Source: Chlorobiota bacterium
GTDB taxonomy: Bacteria > Bacteroidota > Ignavibacteria > Kapaibacteriales > UBA961
Direction: 5' to 3'
Assembly: GCA_014191195.1 (NCBI GenBank)
Contig: BJGZ01000006.1
Coordinates: 62,001 to 126,000 of the forward strand
Length of the DNA: 64,000 nucleotides
Below the pieces are notes generated by a model that did no database searches, was not told the DNA's origin, and saw nothing but the letters and a program-made list of their open reading frames with translations. Numbering within the stretch: the stretch's first letter is position 1; each line of letters opens with the position of its first letter. Shown here piece after piece: positions 1,462 through 34,551 of the stretch. Both the position numbers and the translations under genes were made by a program.

Positions 1462-3129
1462 ATGGCTTCAAGAATAATTAAATCTCCTCATGGCTCGCAA
1501 TTAACCTGCAAAAACTGGCAGATTGAAGCCGCATATAGAATGATTCAAAATAATTTAGACCCATCAGTAGCTGAACATCCTGAAAAGCTTATTGTTTATG
1601 GTGGCCTTGGCAAAGCTGCCAGAAATTGGGATTCTTTAGATGCAATCTTGGATTCTTTGCAACATATGAATCCCGATGAAACTCTGCTTGTACAGTCTGG
1701 CAAGCCTGTTGGTATTGTACCAACACATGAACAAGCCCCAAGGGTAATTATTGCTAATTCTAATTTAGTAGGCAAATGGGCTACTTGGGATGAATTCCGT
1801 CGATTAGATGAATTAGGCCTGATGATGTATGGTCAAATGACAGCTGGAAGTTGGATTTATATTGGAACCCAAGGCATTGTTCAAGGAACATATGAAACAT
1901 TTGCTGAATGTGCCCGACAACATTTTGGCGGAGATTTGTTTGGAACTTTTATACTTACCGCTGGATTAGGTGGTATGGGTGGTGCTCAACCACTAGCTGC
2001 TACTTTTAATGGAGCAGTTGCACTATGTATAGAGATCGATGAATCTAGAATCGATAAACGTATAAAAGACGGATATTGCGATATCAAACTTTCTTCTTTA
2101 ACAGAAGCCCTGACACTTGTAGAAAACTGTAAGAAAAATCGTACAGCTTTGTCAATAGGATTAATTGGAAATGCTGCAGAAATTTTACCTGAAATGCTAC
2201 ATCGTGGAATAATTCCCGACATCGTTACAGATCAAACTGCGGCCCACGATCCTTTACATGGTTATTATCCAGCAGGCCTATCAAAAGAAGAAGCAGATAT
2301 TCTGAGAGTTGAAGATCCTAATGAATATCTTAAAAAAAGTTATCACTCTATCGGCGAACATGTTAAAGCAATGATTGCATTCCAAAAAGCTGGATCTATT
2401 GTTTTTGATTATGGAAATAATATAAGGGGCATAGCAAAAGATAATGCGGGTGTTCACAATGCTTTCGATTTTCCAGGATTTGTTCCAGCTTATGTAAGAC
2501 AATTATTCTGTGATGGTAATGGCCCCTTTAGATGGGTGGCCCTTTCTGGAGATCCTGAAGATATTGCTGTAACCGATGATGCCATTATGGGTTTATTCCC
2601 CAATAATGATGGCCTTCATAGATGGATTAAAAATGCTCAAAGTAGAATTGGTTATCAAGGCCTACCAGCCCGAATATGCTGGCTTAGCTATGGAGAAAGA
2701 GCAAAAGCAGGGAAACTATTTAATGATTTAGTTGCTTCCGGTAAAGTATCTGCCCCAATAGTTATTGGAAGGGATCATCTAGATTGTGGCTCGGTTGCTT
2801 CTCCTTTTCGAGAAACAGAATCTATGCTTGATGGCTCTGATGCAATTGCAGATTGGGTGTACCTTAATTTTGCTCTAAATACTCTTGGAGGTGCAACTTG
2901 GGTTTCTCTTCATCATGGTGGAGGAGTTGGCATGGGCTTATCATTACACTCCGGAATGGTTATTGTTGCTGATGGAACCAAAGATGCAGAAAAAAGGCTT
3001 AACAGAGTATTAACATACGATCCACTCATGGGAATTCTAAGGCATACAGATGCAGGATATTCAAGAGCGATCTCTAATGCTAAAAACTTTGGCATAAAAA
3101 TTCCTTTGGTACCTCTCACAAGAGATTAA
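1462..3129 (+). CDS. hutU: Urocanate hydratase (urocanase)
   Basis: Converts urocanate to 4-imidazolone-5-propionate using tightly bound NAD+, the second step of histidine degradation; cytoplasmic. At 555 residues it has the usual family length. Visible motifs are the N-terminal [16 protein letters not shown], the NAD-binding [14 protein letters not shown], the segment [16 protein letters not shown] and the active-site region [12 protein letters not shown] with the conserved Cys near residue 442. ATG at 1462 ([11 protein letters not shown]) is preferred over an in-frame TTG at 1450. No hutH, hutI or hutG is next to it, so the rest of the pathway must be encoded elsewhere or the gene acts alone here. 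It follows the TldD-like gene by about 70 bases. Confidence 0.95.
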
Positions 3130-4170: not shown

Positions 4171-5061
4171 ATGAAAACATCGATATATATTTTCTTATTT
4201 CTTATACTTACTGTGTATGCAAAGATATTTTCGCAAAATCCTAATGTATTAATAATTACTGCTCATCCTGATGATGAAACTGGATTTGCGGCTACTATTT
4301 ATAAAATAACCCATGATCTTAATGGCAAAGCAGATATTATCGTTATTACCAATGGCGAGGCAGGATACAAGTATTCTAGTATTGCCCAAGATATCTATAA
4401 TATTGAATTAACAAAAGAAGCTATCGGAAGAGAATATCTACCTTCTATAAGAAAAAAAGAATTGATGTCCGGAGGTGCTATTCTAGGTTTAAGAGAGTAT
4501 TATTTTCTAGATCAAAAAGACACCTATTATACTTTAGATGCTGATTCTGTGCTTCGGCATGTATGGGATACTACCTTTATAAAAAGACGTATTCAACAAG
4601 TATTAAAATCGAAACATTATGATTTTATCTTTACTCTACTTCCAACAAATTCAACACATGGACATCATAAAGCGGCTACAATATTGGCTTTATCTGCTGT
4701 ACAAGAGTTTCAATCAAAAAGCAAACCTGTTATTGTAGGATGTACACTTGCAGATTCAACTGCTATTAAACCAGAACCATTTTTAGGATTACAGACATAT
4801 CCAATAACTGCAGTTAAGAATGAATTTCCAAGTGCTCAATTCAATAGAAATCAAAGTTTTGGATATAATAATAAACTTAATTATTCAATTATTGCTAATC
4901 TTGTTATTGCTGAACATAAATCACAGGGAGCAATGCAATTAGCGGCAGGTAAGGGTGATATCGAATATTTCTGGAATTATTCATTAAATTCTCAAGATTC
5001 TGAACTCAATATCAAGCAATTGTTTGATAGAATGGCATTAACTCCTTTTAAACAAAAATAA
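4171..5061 (+). CDS. Exported PIG-L/LmbE-family deacetylase
   Basis: The N-terminal segment MKTSIYIFLFLILTVYA is a signal peptide, so the protein is exported. The zinc-binding AHPDDE motif at about residues 31-36 and the later THGHHKAA define the PIG-L/LmbE fold, whose members remove N-acetyl groups from sugar-linked amines such as GlcNAc derivatives. Export is unusual compared with the cytoplasmic BshB/MshB thiol-pathway enzymes, so a role on cell-envelope or extracellular sugars is more likely, but the substrate is unknown. The BNR-repeat gene starts only 11 bases after its stop, suggesting cotranscription. Confidence 0.85.
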   Translation: MKTSIYIFLFLILTVYAKIFSQNPNVLIITAHPDDETGFAATIYKITHDLNGKADIIVITNGEAGYKYSSIAQDIYNIELTKEAIGREYLPSIRKKELMSGGAILGLREYYFLDQKDTYYTLDADSVLRHVWDTTFIKRRIQQVLKSKHYDFIFTLLPTNSTHGHHKAATILALSAVQEFQSKSKPVIVGCTLADSTAIKPEPFLGLQTYPITAVKNEFPSAQFNRNQSFGYNNKLNYSIIANLVIAEHKSQGAMQLAAGKGDIEYFWNYSLNSQDSELNIKQLFDRMALTPFKQK

Positions 5062-25103: not shown

Positions 25104-25185
25104 GGAGGAATCGCATAATGGTATTGCAGCAGTCTTGAAAACTGCCGGGCTTTCGCCTGTGGGGGTTCGAGTCCCTCTTCCTCCG
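25104..25185 (+). tRNA. tRNA-Ser (anticodon UGA)
   Basis: Acceptor arms GGAGGAA (25104-25110) and TTCCTCC (25178-25184), D arm GCA/TGC, anticodon stem GCAGT/ACTGC with loop CTTGAAA (anticodon TGA), a long variable arm with GGC/GCC, and T arm GGGGG/CCCTC around TTCGAGT. The long variable arm fits class II tRNA-Ser. CCA is not encoded. Its last 12 bases are the start of the element's left direct repeat. Confidence 0.93.
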
Positions 25186-25247
25186 CAACCTTGGTAAAAC
25201 TGGGGTTTATTCAACCGATAATTACATATGTAGTTATCGGTTTTTTT
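25174..25247 (+). repeat. Left direct repeat (attL-like), 74 bp
   Basis: Identical to 30881-30954 except T at 25192 versus A at 30899. It contains the tRNA-Ser 3' end (25174-25185) and the terminator hairpin. This is the normal pattern of a target duplicated by site-specific insertion at a tRNA 3' end. Confidence 0.9.
25215..25247 (+). terminator. Terminator of tRNA-Ser
   Basis: CCGATAATTA (25215-25224) pairs with TAGTTATCGG (25231-25240), then seven T. A second copy is in the right direct repeat. Confidence 0.85.
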
Positions 25248-25249
25248 AT

Positions 25250-25862
25250 GGGGTTAATTCTGTAATGGAATGTAGTGGTAATATTGGTAACAGTATGTTT
25301 TATATAGTAGTTAGGGGTTTTCTTTATTGTCTATTTATGTTCTGTAACTAATTAATATCAGTATGTAACTACTCTTTCTTCTCTCTTTTCACTCTTACTT
25401 GACTATTGGGAATACTATATAAAATGTGTTCACATTAATAGAAAAAGTGTCCACCTATTTTGAAGAGTGTATCAAATGGAATATTTCACACCAAATCAAT
25501 GCATTAAGAGGTAAAATGGAATCTAATTAGAATTGTAGCTAATCCTCCAATGTTTACGGTTAATTATACCCATCCCTGCCTCATGTATGGGGGATATGAT
25601 TAGCAATGAGAAATGAATATTCAATTGGTTGTATATACAGGATATAAATGTGTTATTATAGTAGTGGTAGAATAGGTGTAAATGACCTATACATCGATTG
25701 TAAGGGGTGGTAGTAGAGTGGGTGGTGAATTGTATGGGTGTGGGTATGAGTGAGTAGATAATGTGTATATAACATGAGTATTTTGAGTAATATTAATTAG
25801 TTAAAGAACTTATAATTTGCGTGGTAATAAATTAAAATTTTAATTGTTAAGGATTTTATACA
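25250..25862. other. Non-coding left end of the element
   Basis: About 600 bases without a recognised gene. It contains the left inverted repeat (25553-25767) with a G-rich, T/G-biased strand around 25700-25760, and is otherwise AT-rich. I see no open frame with a plausible start and no tRNA or riboswitch. Confidence 0.7.
25553..25767 (+). repeat. Left arm of long imperfect inverted repeat
   Basis: Matches the reverse complement of 29705-29931. Strongest blocks: 25553-25570 pairs with 29914-29931 (18 bp), 25675-25687 with 29785-29797 (13 bp), and 25724-25767 with 29705-29748 (44 bp, perfect). The blocks are colinear, so these are true diverged arms of roughly 215-227 bp. Confidence 0.88.
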
Positions 25863-26162
25863 ATGTCTGTGCAAAGGTTTAACGATTACATCTCAAAGAA
25901 AACGTTTGAGGGTTATAGCATAGTTGATAAAAATGAGGCATCATTAACAGCAGTTCTTGAAAAGAAAAGTTTAAATGAAGTAAAAAATGAAGAAAAAAAA
26001 TTTACAACGATGGATATTGTACTAACCATTGTTACTTGTGGGGGTTGGTTAATAATATGGTTTATAAAAAAACCTACAACTACTTCTTCATCAACACCTA
26101 ATCTAGTTCGCATCAGAGTGTCTTTCGATTCTTCTGGTAATCTAGTCGAAGAAAAGGGATAA
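25863..26162 (+). CDS. Small membrane protein of unknown function
   Basis: A 99-residue protein. An N-terminal basic/polar part (MSVQRFNDYISKKTFEGYSI) is followed by one hydrophobic segment (VLTIVTCGGWLIIWFIKK) and a polar tail ending in FDSSGNLVEEKG. Proteins of this layout occur in phages and islands, but I cannot name a family. First gene of the element. Confidence 0.6.
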   Translation: MSVQRFNDYISKKTFEGYSIVDKNEASLTAVLEKKSLNEVKNEEKKFTTMDIVLTIVTCGGWLIIWFIKKPTTTSSSTPNLVRIRVSFDSSGNLVEEKG

Positions 26163-26344
26163 CTCTTATTTGTTATCATTAGAATTGACTACATATATGT
26201 TCTAAATCATCGTCTTTTAATTATTTTATTTAATATCAAACAGGTCATAATTAAGACTTATAATATTATTTAACATATTCAAACACGCAAGATAATATCG
26301 AGAAATACTATTAACCCATTTTTTACTAAAATTTAGGACTAGTT

Positions 26345-26719
26345 ATGAAACAACTATTGTTTTTGTTTATTTTATCAATTTCAATATTAGGGTTAAATTC
26401 TTGCTCAAAGAAAGACGCTAAAAATAACGTTGCCGAAGAAATTGCTAAAACGGAGGTAAATGTAGCTGCTCCTGTTAAATTACCAGACCCAAGTGGTACT
26501 TATTCTGATTCTGATGGAGGTTTGAGTTTTACTTTTTACTCATCCGGTAAATTTTCTTCAGAATTGTTAGGAGAAACAACGTTTGGAACCTGGACTAGGA
26601 TAGGTAATAACATAGAATTAACGTACGATGAAGGCGGATTTGCAAATGCACCATCTACTGCAACAGTTAAGAATGGTGATGGATATATAATATTTAATGG
26701 CACAAGATTAAGTAAGTAA
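26345..26719 (+). CDS. Small lipoprotein of the element
   Basis: A 124-residue protein with a clear lipobox (ILGLNSC) after MKQLLFLFILSIS. The rest, PDPSGTYSDSDGGLSFTFYS followed by GTWTRIGNNIELTYDEGG, resembles the small lipocalin-like or META-like domains that many Bacteroidota lipoproteins carry. Its 3' end is made of TAAG repeats that include the stop codon. Function unknown. Confidence 0.65.
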   Translation: MKQLLFLFILSISILGLNSCSKKDAKNNVAEEIAKTEVNVAAPVKLPDPSGTYSDSDGGLSFTFYSSGKFSSELLGETTFGTWTRIGNNIELTYDEGGFANAPSTATVKNGDGYIIFNGTRLSK

Positions 26720-27195
26720 GTAAGTAGTTTAATAATGAATATGTCCTCTTTAATAATTAATTATTGAGGACTTTTTTTTACTTTTTTTACGATATTATTT
26801 TTTTCACTTTATTTCACAAACACACTGTTTTCAGAATTATCAACCATATTTATATATGTATCAAACAATACGTTAACCATGATACTACACTTCCATTCAT
26901 AAGGTGGTTGGTTCTGGTAAGATAAATCTGTGAGAATACTTCTACAATGACCATGTAAACCCTTCTATTCAGTTCGTGTAAACATTTTCATACTTACCCT
27001 AGTAGAGACATTGTAATAAAGGTCTCCCAGTCAATAACTGAATGATTTACTTTTAATTTAATCTATACTAAAATAGGGGGGGGGGAGAAAACCATTCAAT
27101 GAACACTAAGAGAAAGAAAAATGAAAAGAGAAAGAATGTTCCGTAATTAAAAGATTAATAGAATTAAACAATAGTTATTGAAAGATTAGAAGTTA
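26720..27195. other. Gene-free stretch with terminator and G10 tract
   Basis: Contains the terminator at 26743-26779 and, near its end, a run of ten G at 27076-27085 in otherwise AT-rich DNA, about 110 bases before the HTH gene. No other feature is visible. Confidence 0.6.
26743..26779 (+). terminator. Terminator after the element lipoprotein
   Basis: GTCCTC (26743-26748) pairs with GAGGAC (26766-26771), with an inner TAATAA/TTATTG stem, followed by eight T. Confidence 0.8.
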
Positions 27196-27408
27196 ATGTT
27201 AACAATTGAGGATTATAGAATGAAAGATAGAATATCAAAACAAGAACTTATGGAACTTTATCAGGTAGATCGTTCAACAATCGAAAACTGGAAAAGGAAT
27301 TATAATCTACCACTTATTGAAATTAATAGTCATTCTAAGTTTGTGAGAAGAGATGAATTAATTGAGTGGGAGAATAATCAGACTATGAAAAGAGATACTC
27401 AGAAATAG
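27196..27408 (+). CDS. Small helix-turn-helix DNA-binding protein (excisionase-like)
   Basis: A 70-residue protein: ISKQELMELYQVDRSTIENW is a MerR/excisionase-type helix-turn-helix, followed by a wing region ending SKFVRRDELIEWEN, as in small phage and island Xis/AlpA-like proteins. It may control excision or the element's own genes. ATG 27196 and ATG 27220 are both possible. A run of ten G lies 110 bases upstream. Confidence 0.7.
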   Translation: MLTIEDYRMKDRISKQELMELYQVDRSTIENWKRNYNLPLIEINSHSKFVRRDELIEWENNQTMKRDTQK

Positions 27409-27553
27409 AAAACAATTATAAAGAATAACTTCATAAAAGAATAAAACTAAATAAATCTGAAATATTGAACATAATATTTGGAATTAAATGAATTTTCTCA
27501 CTTAAACATACTTATTAACAGTAAATATAAGTACAATTTAATAGGAACACACA

Positions 27554-27715
27554 ATGATAGACCTAACAGAAAATGAGTTAATGGAGTATATTAACATTAT
27601 AACAGATAAGAACCGTAGAATTGATATTTCAAAAAATAACAAAGAAATGAAAGAACGTTTACAAGAAATCTATGATATGTTGGTGATGATTACTCATCAA
27701 CTTAAGGAGAAGTAA
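27554..27715 (+). CDS. Small charged protein ahead of coiled-coil gene
   Basis: 53 residues (MIDLTENELMEYINIITDKN onward), Lys/Glu-rich and probably helical. Its stop codon is directly followed by the ATG of the coiled-coil gene, so the two form an operon. Too short for most gene lists, but spacing and codon pattern support it. Confidence 0.5.
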   Translation: MIDLTENELMEYINIITDKNRRIDISKNNKEMKERLQEIYDMLVMITHQLKEK

Positions 27716-28267
27716 ATGTTATTAAAGGAAGTTACTGAAATAATTAAAGAAGAGATTATCAAGGAGTTTCAATTGAATAAATCTATCTTAGAAAAGGTGG
27801 ATGAGTTTGGTGAACTATCCGATGAGATTGATAAGGTTAAGACACAATTAGAAGAAATGAAAAAGAAATATGAAGGTTTAGAAGAAGAACTTAGACCTTT
27901 ACTTGAAGAATTATCAAAGTATAACCAAAAGTCAATTCAAACAGAGAAGTATTTACTTTCAATAAAACGGTTTGGGTATGAAAAAGAAAACTTGAAGTAT
28001 AAAGAAGTATTTGAACAATCACTTACCAAAGTAAATAAGAATACAAAAAAGTTACTTGAAGACTTACTTCAAACCACCAAAACAATTTCTAAAGTAGTAA
28101 CATCCATCGGTGTTCAAAAGTTAGGTGAAGGTTTCTTTACAGTATTTATAAACAATGTAAAAAAACTCATTAATAGATTGGTTGGTAATGTAAAGAATAT
28201 ATCTGATGACATGGATGACCTTATACTCATAATAAAAAAACTGTTTCCAAAAGAAACCATAGAGTAA
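27716..28267 (+). CDS. Coiled-coil protein of the element
   Basis: 183 residues. A long coiled coil (about residues 20-70, e.g. VDEFGELSDEIDKVKTQLEE) is followed by a more globular helical part. No known family; no signal peptide. Its coupling to the 53-residue gene suggests a two-protein complex. A good terminator follows. Confidence 0.65.
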   Translation: MLLKEVTEIIKEEIIKEFQLNKSILEKVDEFGELSDEIDKVKTQLEEMKKKYEGLEEELRPLLEELSKYNQKSIQTEKYLLSIKRFGYEKENLKYKEVFEQSLTKVNKNTKKLLEDLLQTTKTISKVVTSIGVQKLGEGFFTVFINNVKKLINRLVGNVKNISDDMDDLILIIKKLFPKETIE

Positions 28268-28287
28268 TTATTTCATGTGTAAAAAAG

Positions 28288-28320
28288 AAACCCAATGGAA
28301 GAGAAACCATTGGGTTTTTT
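28288..28320 (+). terminator. Terminator after the coiled-coil gene
   Basis: AAACCCAATGG (28288-28298) pairs with CCATTGGGTTT (28307-28317), followed by a T run to 28320. Confidence 0.85.
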
Positions 28321-28547
28321 GATTCATCGTAGTGAGATTGAATACTATTAATAGTTGTCTGACTATGTGTATGATAAATTCATTTTGACAATTTTCAAGA
28401 ATCTGAATATTACAAAAAAAGTGAATAGAACACCTTAAAATGAAGTTTTTTAATCTACAGATAAAAAAGTGTGTTTATTGAGTGTATTCAGGAATTTCAT
28501 AAACATTAAAATGTATAAGGTCCATCATTTTACTGAGTTAAAAACTA

Positions 28548-28997
28548 TTAATCACAAGAACCTGAATTACATTTGAATTGTAATATTAGTTTATCGTTTG
28601 AAAATACTCTAACAGAAACTCCAGACTCTCCATAATCACACATTCTTACCCAAGGGAATACAGCAAAACTAACTTTTTTTAATCCATAATTTGAGGGAAT
28701 ACTTCCATTTAGTATAATCTCTTTTGTTTCGTTGTCTTCAATTTCAATTTCAATTTCTGACTCATTAATTGAACTTATTTCAATCCTTCCTAACTCATCT
28801 AGAAATCCACTAAAACAACAAAAATATATTCCTTCTTCATAATTTAATTGATTACTTGGAATTTCTTTTTTATCATTTAGTTTAAAAACTTTAATCTTAA
28901 CATCACTTTTATTTGTATTACCAAGTATGTAAGTTGATGGTAATATTAGACTTGTTATTATTATCAAATATAATTTAACAACGTTTTTCTTAATCAT
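28548..28997 (-). CDS. Exported protein of the element, paralogue of 29111-29641
   Basis: 149 residues with a signal peptide (MIKKNVVKLYLIIITSLILP). After it come VKIKVFKLNDKKEI, a conserved FPW near residue 118 and four Cys at the end of the protein and in the middle (FCCFSG, FKCNSGSCD). It shares the IKV-x2-FK-x3-KK start and a later P-W motif with the upstream gene, so the two look like diverged duplicates. No family is recognised. Confidence 0.6.
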   Translation of the reverse strand: MIKKNVVKLYLIIITSLILPSTYILGNTNKSDVKIKVFKLNDKKEIPSNQLNYEEGIYFCCFSGFLDELGRIEISSINESEIEIEIEDNETKEIILNGSIPSNYGLKKVSFAVFPWVRMCDYGESGVSVRVFSNDKLILQFKCNSGSCD

Positions 28998-29110
28998 GAG
29001 GTTTTCCTACAAATTGAAAATTTAAAAATCAGAATTATTAAAATGAATAAAAGAGATATATAAACTACCTCACCACACACACAAGAACCACTTCATTATC
29101 TAAAGACTTG

Positions 29111-29641
29111 TTATTCTAACTCATAATGAATACTCATGATACGATTCTCACTCATGATACGATTCTCAACTTCCCGTAAAAAATTATTCCTTTCAATAAG
29201 AATTAGATATTTACCCTTACTCATAATCCATGGAGATAATGGAAGTATATAAGTAGTTCCTTCTTCTTTTCCACGATAATTTGAAAGAAAACTTTTACTA
29301 ACTGTGAATGTAACTGTATCTTTGAATAAAACTATACTTTTCGTTTCTACATTGAAGACTGTTAGTTTATATGATAAATCCTCAAGGTTATCATCAAAGT
29401 ATCCATTCAGAAGTATCTTCTCGATTGGTTCACTTACTGTTATACTATATTCCTTGAAACCATATTCATTTTCAGATAATAAATTGTAAGAATTCAAAGA
29501 GATAGGTTTCTTACTTTTACTTTTGAACATTTGGACTTTGATACCGTCTTCTGTAATGAAGTCACAAAGTGTAGTTAGGGGTGTTGTTAATAGAACACCA
29601 ATAACTAAGAAATAGAGTAGACTCATTTTCATTTCATACAC
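29111..29641 (-). CDS. Exported protein of the element with a repeat duplication at its end
   Basis: 176 residues, signal peptide MKMSLLYFLVIGVLLTTP (preferred start at 29632 or 29641). Motif IKVQMFKSKSKKPIS and LPLSPW align with its neighbour 28548-28997. The last residues contain ENRIMS twice in a row, from an 18-bp tandem duplication at 29133-29168. Likely an envelope protein; function unknown. Confidence 0.6.
   Translation of the reverse strand: MYEMKMSLLYFLVIGVLLTTPLTTLCDFITEDGIKVQMFKSKSKKPISLNSYNLLSENEYGFKEYSITVSEPIEKILLNGYFDDNLEDLSYKLTVFNVETKSIVLFKDTVTFTVSKSFLSNYRGKEEGTTYILPLSPWIMSKGKYLILIERNNFLREVENRIMSENRIMSIHYELE
29133..29168 (+). repeat. Tandem 18-bp duplication inside a CDS
   Basis: The unit CTCATGATACGATTCTCA occurs at 29133-29150 and again at 29151-29168 with no difference. 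It is in frame and doubles six residues near the C-terminus, which points to a recent slippage event. Confidence 0.9.
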
Positions 29642-30139
29642 CCATGAATTTATAATAATACTAACCCAATACTCAAACTTACTTAATATTCAAACCAAGT
29701 TAACTACACATTATCTACTCACTCATACCCACACCCATACAATTCACCCCATCCTCATTAAACACCCCTCATATTTAATTTCTGGGTCATTTACACCCAT
29801 TCTAACCACACTACAATCCACTATCAATAATGACCTTTTCCATACTCCTCAATATCACAACTGATATCAACGGTACCTATAATATTAATACCTACCACTA
29901 TACTAGAGGGGGTGGTATAATTAACCGTAAATGGTAGAGGGGGGTGGGTATCCACAATCATAACTCAAATCCTTTTTCATATCGGAAACAAAAATTCACT
30001 AGAGGAAAACCATTCACAATCGTTATGATTTTGATTAAGAATAATCCAATAACATTTATTTCCCGGAATGTCTTTGGTCCCATCACACTGGAACCCTAGA
30101 TTACATCAAAATAATTCTGAATTAAGATTGATAACACTT
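29642..30139. other. Non-coding stretch holding the right inverted repeat
   Basis: About 500 bases before the recombinase. Contains the right arm 29705-29931, a C/A-rich strand bias opposite to that of the left arm, and a G-rich block near 29935-29950. No gene is seen. Confidence 0.7.
29705..29931 (-). repeat. Right arm of long imperfect inverted repeat
   Basis: Reverse complement of the left arm at 25553-25767; the innermost 44 bp (29705-29748) are identical to 25724-25767. The arms enclose 3.9 kb and leave the recombinase outside. Confidence 0.88.
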
Positions 30140-30775
30140 ATGAAAGTAAAGTATCAAAGAACTTCCACGATGGAACAACACGGTGAGAGATTTGGAATGG
30201 ATGTGGATGGATATGACCTCATTCTCTTTGACCGTGGTATTAGTGGAACAAAACCATTCCGTGAAAGAACAAACGGTATGAAGATTATCACATTGGTTGA
30301 TGAAGGTAGACTGAAAGAACTAATAGTTCCTGAACTAAGAGATATTGGTAGAAATACATTTGATACAATCTCTGTATTAGATTATATGGAAAAACACAAT
30401 GTGATAGTCACCATACAATCACTCGGTAACCTTCAAAGTATCGTAGAAGGAAAGAAAAACCCACTATGGACATTAGTTTCAAGTATCATGAGTTCACTCT
30501 ACCAAATGGAATTAGAGAACTTGAAATTGAGAACTCACATGGGAAGACAATCCTATCTGATGAGAGGTGGTAAATTGGGAAGGAAAATGGGTTCCAATGA
30601 GAATGTGACAACCTTCATGAATAAACCCAAGTCACAAGAGATTGTGTCTCTACTGAACCGTGGTAAATCTGTTCGTGATGTATGTGGTAGATTAGGTGTC
30701 TCACCGAACTTGGTGACGAAGGTGAGAAGGATACTGAGAGAATGGAATGATGGTGATGTGACTATGGTGGGATGA
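30140..30775 (+). CDS. Small serine recombinase (resolvase/invertase family)
   Basis: 211 residues from ATG 30140 (MKVKYQRTSTMEQ); the longer frame from 30068 has unrelated residues ahead. The nucleophile Ser is in YQRTST, followed by DRGISGTKPFRERTNGMKII, GRNTFDTI and a C-terminal HTH (SVRDVCGRLGVSPNLVTKV). The second catalytic block reads ELRDIGRN where relatives have D-R-x-x-R, so one conserved Arg is replaced by Asp. It ends 105 bases before the right direct repeat and is the only recombinase in the element, so it is the candidate integrase or inverter. Confidence 0.85.
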   Translation: MKVKYQRTSTMEQHGERFGMDVDGYDLILFDRGISGTKPFRERTNGMKIITLVDEGRLKELIVPELRDIGRNTFDTISVLDYMEKHNVIVTIQSLGNLQSIVEGKKNPLWTLVSSIMSSLYQMELENLKLRTHMGRQSYLMRGGKLGRKMGSNENVTTFMNKPKSQEIVSLLNRGKSVRDVCGRLGVSPNLVTKVRRILREWNDGDVTMVG

Positions 30776-30880
30776 TAGTATGAAATCCACTTACTATCGG
30801 ATTGATTGAAGGTAGAGGAAATCCCTGAGATGATGATTGGATGTGATGATGATGGATGTGTGTAAGTCTAATAATATCAA

Positions 30881-30954
30881 CCTCTTCCTCCGCAACCTAG
30901 GTAAAACTGGGGTTTATTCAACCGATAATTACATATGTAGTTATCGGTTTTTTT
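30881..30954 (+). repeat. Right direct repeat (attR-like), 74 bp
   Basis: Copy of the tRNA-Ser 3' end and terminator, one mismatch from 25174-25247. Only the last 12 bases of the tRNA are present here, so it is not a second functional tRNA. Confidence 0.9.
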
Positions 30955-31165: not shown

Positions 31166-31777
31166 ATGAAATATGTTTTATTCTTATTTTTATTTGTTAT
31201 ATGTAACATTGCTTGTAATCAACAAGTAGTAAAGAATGTATCAAATATATCAAAAGATGAAAAGAACATTGTAATATTTAGTCTTGATTCTGTAGACTAT
31301 AAAGATACATCTAATCATGAGCATTCAGAAATTGTATCAAAACAGAAAAATCCACATAGCATCATCAATAATGATGGAGAATCATCACAAGAAATGTTTA
31401 CATTACTTAGTGCTTCTTCAAAAAGTTGGATTTCTGGATTGCCAAATGGCGATAATGGAATTGAATATTACTTTAAACTTAAAATACATACATCTCAACA
31501 ATTAAGTTTTGATAGTGCATGGATTAACAATGATGTATTTATAATATCTGTATCAAAAGAAACCTCAACAATATCAAATCGACCAGTGACTATTAATAAT
31601 GGCGATATTATAACATTGAGAATTACCGATTTGCAAAATAGAACAATCAGAAAGGCAAATGTAAAAGCACCAATTGATTTCAATGGAGCAGCCTTGATTT
31701 CTTATAAACTTGATGATAAACAGAAGTATTTTATTATCAAAGAAATACAAACACAATCGCCGATATATAGAAAATAA
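31166..31777 (+). CDS. Lipoprotein of unknown function
   Basis: 203 residues; lipobox FVICNIAC near residue 17. No family recognised. The following BNR gene starts 29 bases later and may be cotranscribed. First host gene after the element. Confidence 0.6.
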   Translation: MKYVLFLFLFVICNIACNQQVVKNVSNISKDEKNIVIFSLDSVDYKDTSNHEHSEIVSKQKNPHSIINNDGESSQEMFTLLSASSKSWISGLPNGDNGIEYYFKLKIHTSQQLSFDSAWINNDVFIISVSKETSTISNRPVTINNGDIITLRITDLQNRTIRKANVKAPIDFNGAALISYKLDDKQKYFIIKEIQTQSPIYRK

Positions 31778-34513: not shown

Positions 34514-34551
34514 AAAAACCGATAATTAATTAATATAATTATCGGTTTTTT
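34514..34551. terminator. Bidirectional terminator
   Basis: CCGATAATTA (34519-34528) and TAATTATCGG (34536-34545) flanked by A and T runs. It lies between two convergent genes. Its stem matches that of the tRNA-Ser terminators at 25215 and 30922. Confidence 0.85.

Follow-up and report, generated by a model that had tools for sequence, protein, structure and literature searches.

A compact island behind tRNA-Ser(UGA) in a Chlorobiota bacterium, with a small serine recombinase as its sole recombinase

Positions 25174-30954 of a 64,000-nucleotide stretch of Chlorobiota bacterium DNA (assembly GCA_014191195.1, contig BJGZ01000006.1, positions 62,001 to 126,000; hereafter referred to as the window) are a 5.7-kb insertion of foreign DNA directly behind a transfer RNA (tRNA) gene, tRNA-Ser(UGA). 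The insertion has defined ends, its site is empty in a sister species, and its left end is found again in the same genome, at another tRNA-Ser gene. The account favoured here, with modest confidence, is that of a non-autonomous tRNA-gene (tDNA) island that would have been moved by a tyrosine integrase, either lost or acting in trans, with its own serine recombinase acting on a pair of inverted repeats (IRs). Coordinates of the features are collected in Table 1.

Target Site and Island Ends

The island is bounded by two copies of a 74-nt direct repeat that stand 5707 bp apart, are 99% identical (1/74 mismatch), and constitute by far the strongest repeat of the region. A chance repeat is ruled out as the source of the duplication by its length and identity. 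An earlier reading, made from the letters of the stretch alone (the sequence-only reading), had described a 74-bp, one-mismatch repeat that copies the 3′ end of the tRNA plus its terminator. The repeat is real, but only its first 13 nt, the last of tRNA-Ser(UGA), are tRNA. These are followed by a 26-nt hairpin-forming spacer and a 30-nt palindrome that runs into T7, such that 61 nt lie outside the tRNA and the bulk of the repeat is spacer and terminator. The palindrome has a 2-bp AT centre. Folded as RNA, the left copy forms two hairpins (z -5.5); in the right copy, CCTTGG has become CCTAGG and the spacer hairpin is shortened. Given its hairpin-weakening effect, this substitution suggests that the right copy is the one freed from constraint.

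Nearly the same palindromic terminator (ACCGATAATTA...TAGTTATCGGT) ends tRNA-Ser(UGA), tRNA-Ser(CGA), the transfer-messenger RNA (tmRNA) gene, and a few protein genes of the genus. It occurs in the window at 25213-25242, 30920-30949 and 34518-34546, and at tRNA-Ser(CGA) and tmRNA of four genomes (G000, G002, G003 and G006). A genome-wide repeat or uptake sequence was considered and rejected, since each genome holds only a handful of copies, at tRNA-Ser, tmRNA and a few gene ends. Copy counts rest on sequence searches across genomes.

That the segment is an insertion follows from the corresponding site of G006 (L025), where tRNA and terminator are present in a single copy and the homologue of the window's right-flank gene starts ~100 bp later, directly behind them. 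In G003 (L026), the site is single copy too, but its right flank differs from that of the window. Both genomes belong to other species of the window's genus rather than to strains, and the spacer sequence at both sites differs from the window's spacer. GC content drops only slightly inside the island (~0.27 vs 0.32-0.35), and GC skew in the region swings from +0.29 to -0.29. The proposal of a small integrated element at tRNA-Ser(UGA), made in the sequence-only reading, is therefore borne out by the tRNA call, the direct repeat, and the empty site in a relative. That reading had also named two findings that would speak against it, namely a duplicated 74 bp in relatives that lack the element and cargo fixed across the genus. 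Both were looked for: the relatives carry no such duplication, and the cargo tested is not fixed. A genus-fixed locus is ruled out by the empty sites and the absent proteins.

Island Sites in the Genus

The left arm of the element, i.e., the 220 bp to the right of the attL-side repeat, recurs once in the island's own genome, behind tRNA-Ser(CGA). The ends of contigs C7 and C17 share a perfect 127-bp overlap here. Window positions 25263-25468 match C17:1-206 with 92% identity, after which C17 diverges into non-coding DNA. In G006, tRNA-Ser(CGA) is adjoined by an intact tyrosine integrase of 403-422 aa with arm-binding, SAM-like and catalytic domains (PF00589, PF13102, PF17293). At the same tRNA gene, G002 and G003 have kept the first 39 codons of the integrase, at 79-82% identity, and a related integrase start is found behind tmRNA in G002. 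A stub of the serine recombinase in G006 lies on contig C31, which runs on into the genes found behind tRNA-Ser(CGA) in G003 and G002 (flank synteny of L023 7005-9057 with L076 1075-3124, 72.5%). Because C31 continues into the genes of that locus, the stub is assigned to the tRNA-Ser(CGA) island, although joining C31 by end overlap to C21, the G006 contig with the integrase, failed. Judged by these sequence comparisons, tRNA-Ser genes (UGA and CGA) and tmRNA are recurrent island sites in the genus; for tRNA-Ser, the case is made by the left arm, the tyrosine-integrase islands and remnants, and the recombinase stub, all of which recur at tRNA-Ser(CGA). The sequence-only reading had placed the island in a family that it did not recognise. 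Its kind is now partly recognisable from the tyrosine-integrase islands and remnants at tRNA-Ser(CGA) and tmRNA.

Two further arrangements were observed at these sites. On C21 of G006, perfect inverted copies of a 120-bp att arm (L077 1-120 and 1548-1667) flank the tyrosine integrase behind tRNA-Ser(CGA). This integrase faces opposite to the stubs of G002 and G003, an arrangement due either to genuine inversion or to the assembly at the contig end. In the island's own genome, a 1.28-kb insertion with a Fic-domain gene lies behind tmRNA (L004 1106-2810; C2, ~165394-167100), between two terminator palindromes. It carries no recombinase, and the tmRNA site is empty in G003.

Decay is the rule at these loci, as seen in the integrase stubs of G002 and G003 and in the G006 recombinase truncated to 59 codons. 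Likewise, tRNA-Ser(CGA) of the island's own genome holds only ~200 bp of the left end and then non-coding sequence. The island itself might accordingly be pictured as a now-immobile relic: deletions at a hot spot, together with homologous recombination among terminator or tRNA-tail sequences of near identity, would have assembled it. We regard such an origin as very unlikely: the repeats differ at just one of 74 positions, all ORFs (open reading frames) >50 aa are open, the recombinase is full length, and two near-identical 74-bp ends are what would be expected from recent site-specific integration.

The Serine Recombinase and the Inverted Repeats

The recombinase of the island combines a PF00239 catalytic domain (E 2e-10) with C-terminal helix-turn-helix (HTH) matches in ~200 aa, which is the architecture of small serine recombinases (resolvases and invertases). 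Its nearest named families are the PHROG 'DNA invertase' (E 7e-17) and the Mpi invertase model (E 5e-8), with a score of 32.9 bits that falls far below the 272-bit cut-off of the Mpi-type equivalog NF009949. An AlphaFold model of the protein resembles the Sin, Tn3 and gamma-delta resolvases. By sequence, then, the enzyme appears to resemble an invertase or resolvase and need not be an integrase.

Homologues with 52-65% identity occur in metagenome-assembled genomes of freshwater Bacteroidota (L015-L019), and others with 44-47% identity in Mucilaginibacter and further Bacteroidota. Within the genus, the gene was found in one other genome, as the 59-codon stub of G006. This comes from a search of 60 relatives with three island proteins (the recombinase, the 172-aa exported protein and the coiled-coil protein); for the other ORFs, searches covered only already collected loci. 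The catalytic motif departs from the canonical D-R-x-x-R and reads L-R-D-I-G-R. This exchange of [D/S]-R for R-D is shared by 6/6 clade members, one of them partial (window 30320-30360 and L015-L019), with the clade consensus [LI]-R-D-[IV]-G-R and SRxGR in the sister group. The motif's final arginine is retained, as are Ser9, Arg7 and the remaining invariant residues. One of the related contigs (L018) encodes, besides an R-D recombinase, a large serine integrase and a 576-aa protein that has no match in Pfam, with a 99-bp perfect inverted repeat at its end (2995-3093 / 4489-4587); it may represent either a small element or a fold-back of the assembly.

Two IRs of ~240 bp, IR-L and IR-R, flank the cargo. 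They are homologous in inverted orientation, gapped, and ~80% alike overall, with identical stretches of 44 bp (25724-25767 / 29705-29748) and 18 bp. IR-R lies between the recombinase and the leftward genes, and IR-L ends ~50-90 bp before the first rightward gene. A homologue of the IRs stands beside the G006 recombinase stub (L010/L023), in front of a different exported-protein gene. The two window copies of the 44-bp block agree and that of G006 differs, as if the blocks had been exchanged or homogenised.

These features could be taken to mean that recombinase and IRs act as a phase-variation device in which the 4-kb cargo is flipped between inverted sites, with the mobility of the island being incidental. 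The enzyme is Mpi/DNA-invertase-like, the IRs (25544-25776 / 29696-29940) stand just upstream of inward-reading genes on both sides, and the 44-bp block shared by the two IRs, whose sequence differs in G006, may reflect homogenisation. Known invertase sites, however, are short and exact, whereas the IRs are long and imperfect, and the cargo is not recognisably a surface-variation set. A device of this kind is possible, if on the unlikely side. An invertase role for the enzyme is also compatible with the favoured account of a tyrosine-integrase-moved island, so the confidence placed in each overlaps.

Proposed Mobilization of the Island

According to the favoured account, the island would have entered by recombination between a tDNA-mimicking attP (tRNA tail, spacer and terminator) and the chromosomal tRNA-Ser. 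The left repeat copy would then restore the tRNA and its terminator, while the right copy would be the displaced tail. A tyrosine integrase, lost by the island or borrowed in trans, is the most likely enzyme; the island retains an excisionase-like HTH protein of 70 aa, with a match (E 1e-7) to PHROG family 66, 'excisionase and transcriptional regulator'. A tyrosine integrase is preferred because such recombinases are the only ones known to target tDNAs, as stated by the authors of Islander (PMC4383910), because integrases of the genus are found at tRNA-Ser(CGA) and tmRNA, and because the excisionase-like protein is kept. The on-board serine recombinase, in turn, most likely works on the cargo-flanking IRs, through inversion or local rearrangement, and not on the tRNA site, since its nearest curated families are DNA invertases and IRs with 44-bp identical blocks adjoin it.

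Several results weigh against this account. There is no PF00589 match on the island, and a tblastn search of the island with the G006 integrase gave nothing convincing, so that a hidden integrase remnant, looked for inside the island, was not found. The left arm shares with the tyrosine-island arm only a 27-bp motif at the same offset, a likeness equalled by ~6/300 shuffles. The tyrosine recombinases of the island's own genome comprise XerD, one XerC-like and one XerA-like enzyme only, none of the arm type. Inversion between the IRs was not observed, and these are only ~80% alike overall. Finally, both genus occurrences of the serine recombinase (2/2) are at a tRNA-Ser locus, an observation consistent with the enzyme being the integrase.

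The XerA-like enzyme is an orphan, XerA/integron-integrase-like protein of 281 aa encoded beside a ychF-like gene (C9; L084 474-1319). It scores below the XerC, XerD and integron model cut-offs and could act in trans. An integron cassette array was rejected as the nature of the island, there being no integron integrase, repeats unlike attC, and only this C9 enzyme below the integron cut-off.

The alternative is that the small serine recombinase is itself the integrase and inserted the island behind tRNA-Ser by recombining the ~30-bp palindromic terminator. It is the sole recombinase on the island, its genus occurrences (2/2) are at tRNA-Ser loci, and its gene abuts attR; the palindrome held by the 74-bp repeat is of a size like the crossover site of small serine recombinases; and the Fic-domain insertion behind tmRNA is flanked by the same kind of terminator palindrome. 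Yet no serine integrase is known to use a tRNA gene as its target (PMC4383910), and the known ones are large, with C-terminal domains that the island enzyme lacks. Its family matches are to invertases and resolvases, and its canonical catalytic arginine is replaced. In addition, the repeat extends past the palindrome by 40 bp on just one side, the one that runs into the tRNA, which is the pattern of ordinary tDNA islands, and homologues in other Bacteroidota (L015-L022) have no tRNA nearby, several of them standing beside large serine integrases. We regard an integrase role as unlikely. Its boldest form, in which a ~210-aa serine recombinase with a reversed D-R directs cassette integration at palindromic terminators behind tRNA-Ser and tmRNA, and would represent the first tRNA-targeting serine recombinase and a new minimal integrative element, strikes us as quite unlikely.

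Genes of the Island

The island has eight ORFs of 53-211 aa. The genes at its left are directed rightward, the two exported-protein genes leftward, and the recombinase rightward at the right end. As the sequence-only reading had it, tiny genes, an HTH protein, a serine recombinase and inverted repeats are all present between the direct repeats.

Table 1. Features of the tRNA-Ser(UGA) island and its flanks (window coordinates)
Feature	Position	Strand	Remarks
tRNA-Ser(UGA), intact, integration target of the island	25104..25186	+	ARAGORN
74-bp direct repeat, copy on the attL side; comprises tRNA 3′ tail, hairpin-forming spacer and terminator	25174..25247	+	Folds as two hairpins
Terminator stem, 30-bp palindrome AACCGATAATTACATATGTAGTTATCGGTT, then T7	25213..25242	.	
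Left-end arm of the element	25248..25468	.	92% identity over 25263-25468 to sequence behind own-genome tRNA-Ser(CGA), C7/C17 junction
Left inverted repeat (IR-L)	25544..25776	+	Holds block 25724-25767, identical to IR-R
ORF, 99 aa	25863..26162	+	One hydrophobic segment by eye
ORF, 124 aa, probable lipoprotein	26345..26719	+	Low-confidence beta/lipocalin-like domain
ORF, 70-aa HTH protein	27196..27408	+	Phage excisionase/regulator family phrog_66, E 1e-7
ORF, 53 aa	27554..27715	+	Directly adjoins next gene
ORF, 183-aa coiled-coil protein	27716..28267	+	
ORF, 149 aa, probable exported protein	28548..28997	-	
ORF, 176 aa (172 from 29629), probable exported protein	29111..29641	-	
Right inverted repeat (IR-R)	29696..29940	-	Upstream of recombinase; block 29705-29748 identical to IR-L
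Small serine recombinase, 211 aa	30140..30775	+	PF00239; motif LRDIGR for LDRLGR
attR-side copy of the 74-bp direct repeat	30881..30954	+	One substitution weakening the spacer hairpin
Chromosomal right-flank gene	31166..31777	+	G006 homologue directly behind tRNA-Ser(UGA) at the empty site

Little of the cargo resembles known proteins. Among the island ORFs, PHROGs gave similarities for the recombinase, the HTH protein and the coiled-coil protein only, and structure comparison of the 124-aa lipoprotein yielded only weak lipocalin-like matches. The coiled-coil protein has no convincing homologue in the 60 relatives (a single match, E 9e-4), and the 172-aa exported protein has no match in them. 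An apparent fragment of the latter on C17 of the island's own genome (12 aa, E 0.018) was too weak to be used. Two perfect tandem copies of an 18-bp unit are present at the 3′ end of its gene (29132-29167).

Scans of the eight ORFs support the view of the sequence-only reading that replication and transfer genes are not visible and that the cargo is unknown: they gave no convincing match to genes of replication, defence or packaging or to a relaxase, and no ORF belongs to a relaxase family (an origin of transfer, oriT, was not searched for). Its suggestion of a satellite-type or mobilisable element found no support among these ORFs, in which relaxase, packaging and helper-dependent genes were not recognised (the survey did not include oriT). 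A phage-satellite origin was rejected: the recombinase is on no viral contig, the one phage match is at 29%, and the PHROGs comparison gave no packaging, capsid-remodelling or helper-linked replication genes. A plasmid origin was rejected as well, the plasmid matches being recombinases 30% identical.

Comparison with Known Elements

The closest general model is that of the tDNA islands catalogued in Islander (PMC4383910). Like them, the island has an intact tRNA at one end, a directly oriented, displaced 3′ fragment at the opposite end, an empty site in a relative, and a length within the usual range (over 2 kb). Unlike them, it lacks its own integrase, which is a required filter of the catalogue, and its repeat is mostly terminator rather than tRNA. 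Since carrying an integrase is one of the features that define Islander elements, we class the island as a non-autonomous variant, short of full membership.

By target, the nearest named element is NBU2, an integrative and mobilizable element (IME) of Bacteroides found at the 3′ end of tRNA-Ser (PMC5704250). The two share this target, broadly the same host group, and the character of a small non-conjugative element. The island differs from NBU2-type IMEs in that no tyrosine integrase or relaxase was recognised on it, oriT not having been searched for; its candidates for integration and excision are only the small serine recombinase and the excisionase-like HTH protein. Closer in this respect are cis-mobilizable elements (CIMEs) and trans-mobilised islands (PMC5704250), which likewise consist of att-like ends and cargo without an integrase; within the genus of the island, such sites also hold related islands. 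In contrast to these, there is no resident helper in the assembly of the island, and its mobilisation, in cis or in trans, is putative.

Two groups of recombinases are also comparable. The Mpi-type serine invertases of Bacteroides (NF009949) are small, have invertase-type relatives, and lie beside inverted repeats, as does the island enzyme, but the latter scores 33 bits vs 272, has R-D for D-R, and adjoins long, imperfect IRs. Small serine recombinases on Mucilaginibacter islands (L020-L022) share 44-47% identity and the same short N-terminus and HTH. They differ in having SRxGR, and a large serine recombinase is near L020 and L022.

Significance

The island resembles a pared-down representative of a widespread type of genomic island and looks unusual mainly because its sole recombinase belongs to a family that is not known to target tRNA genes. 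If the serine recombinase were the integrase, the rule that tRNA genes are chosen by tyrosine recombinases only would no longer hold, and a small recombinase open to direct testing would be gained. Under either reading, the R-D order conserved in its catalytic motif can be put to the test. If the favoured, more ordinary account of a tyrosine-integrase-moved island holds, the window would contain a compact, precisely bounded non-autonomous island, and tRNA-Ser and tmRNA would be recurrent island sites in a little-studied freshwater lineage.

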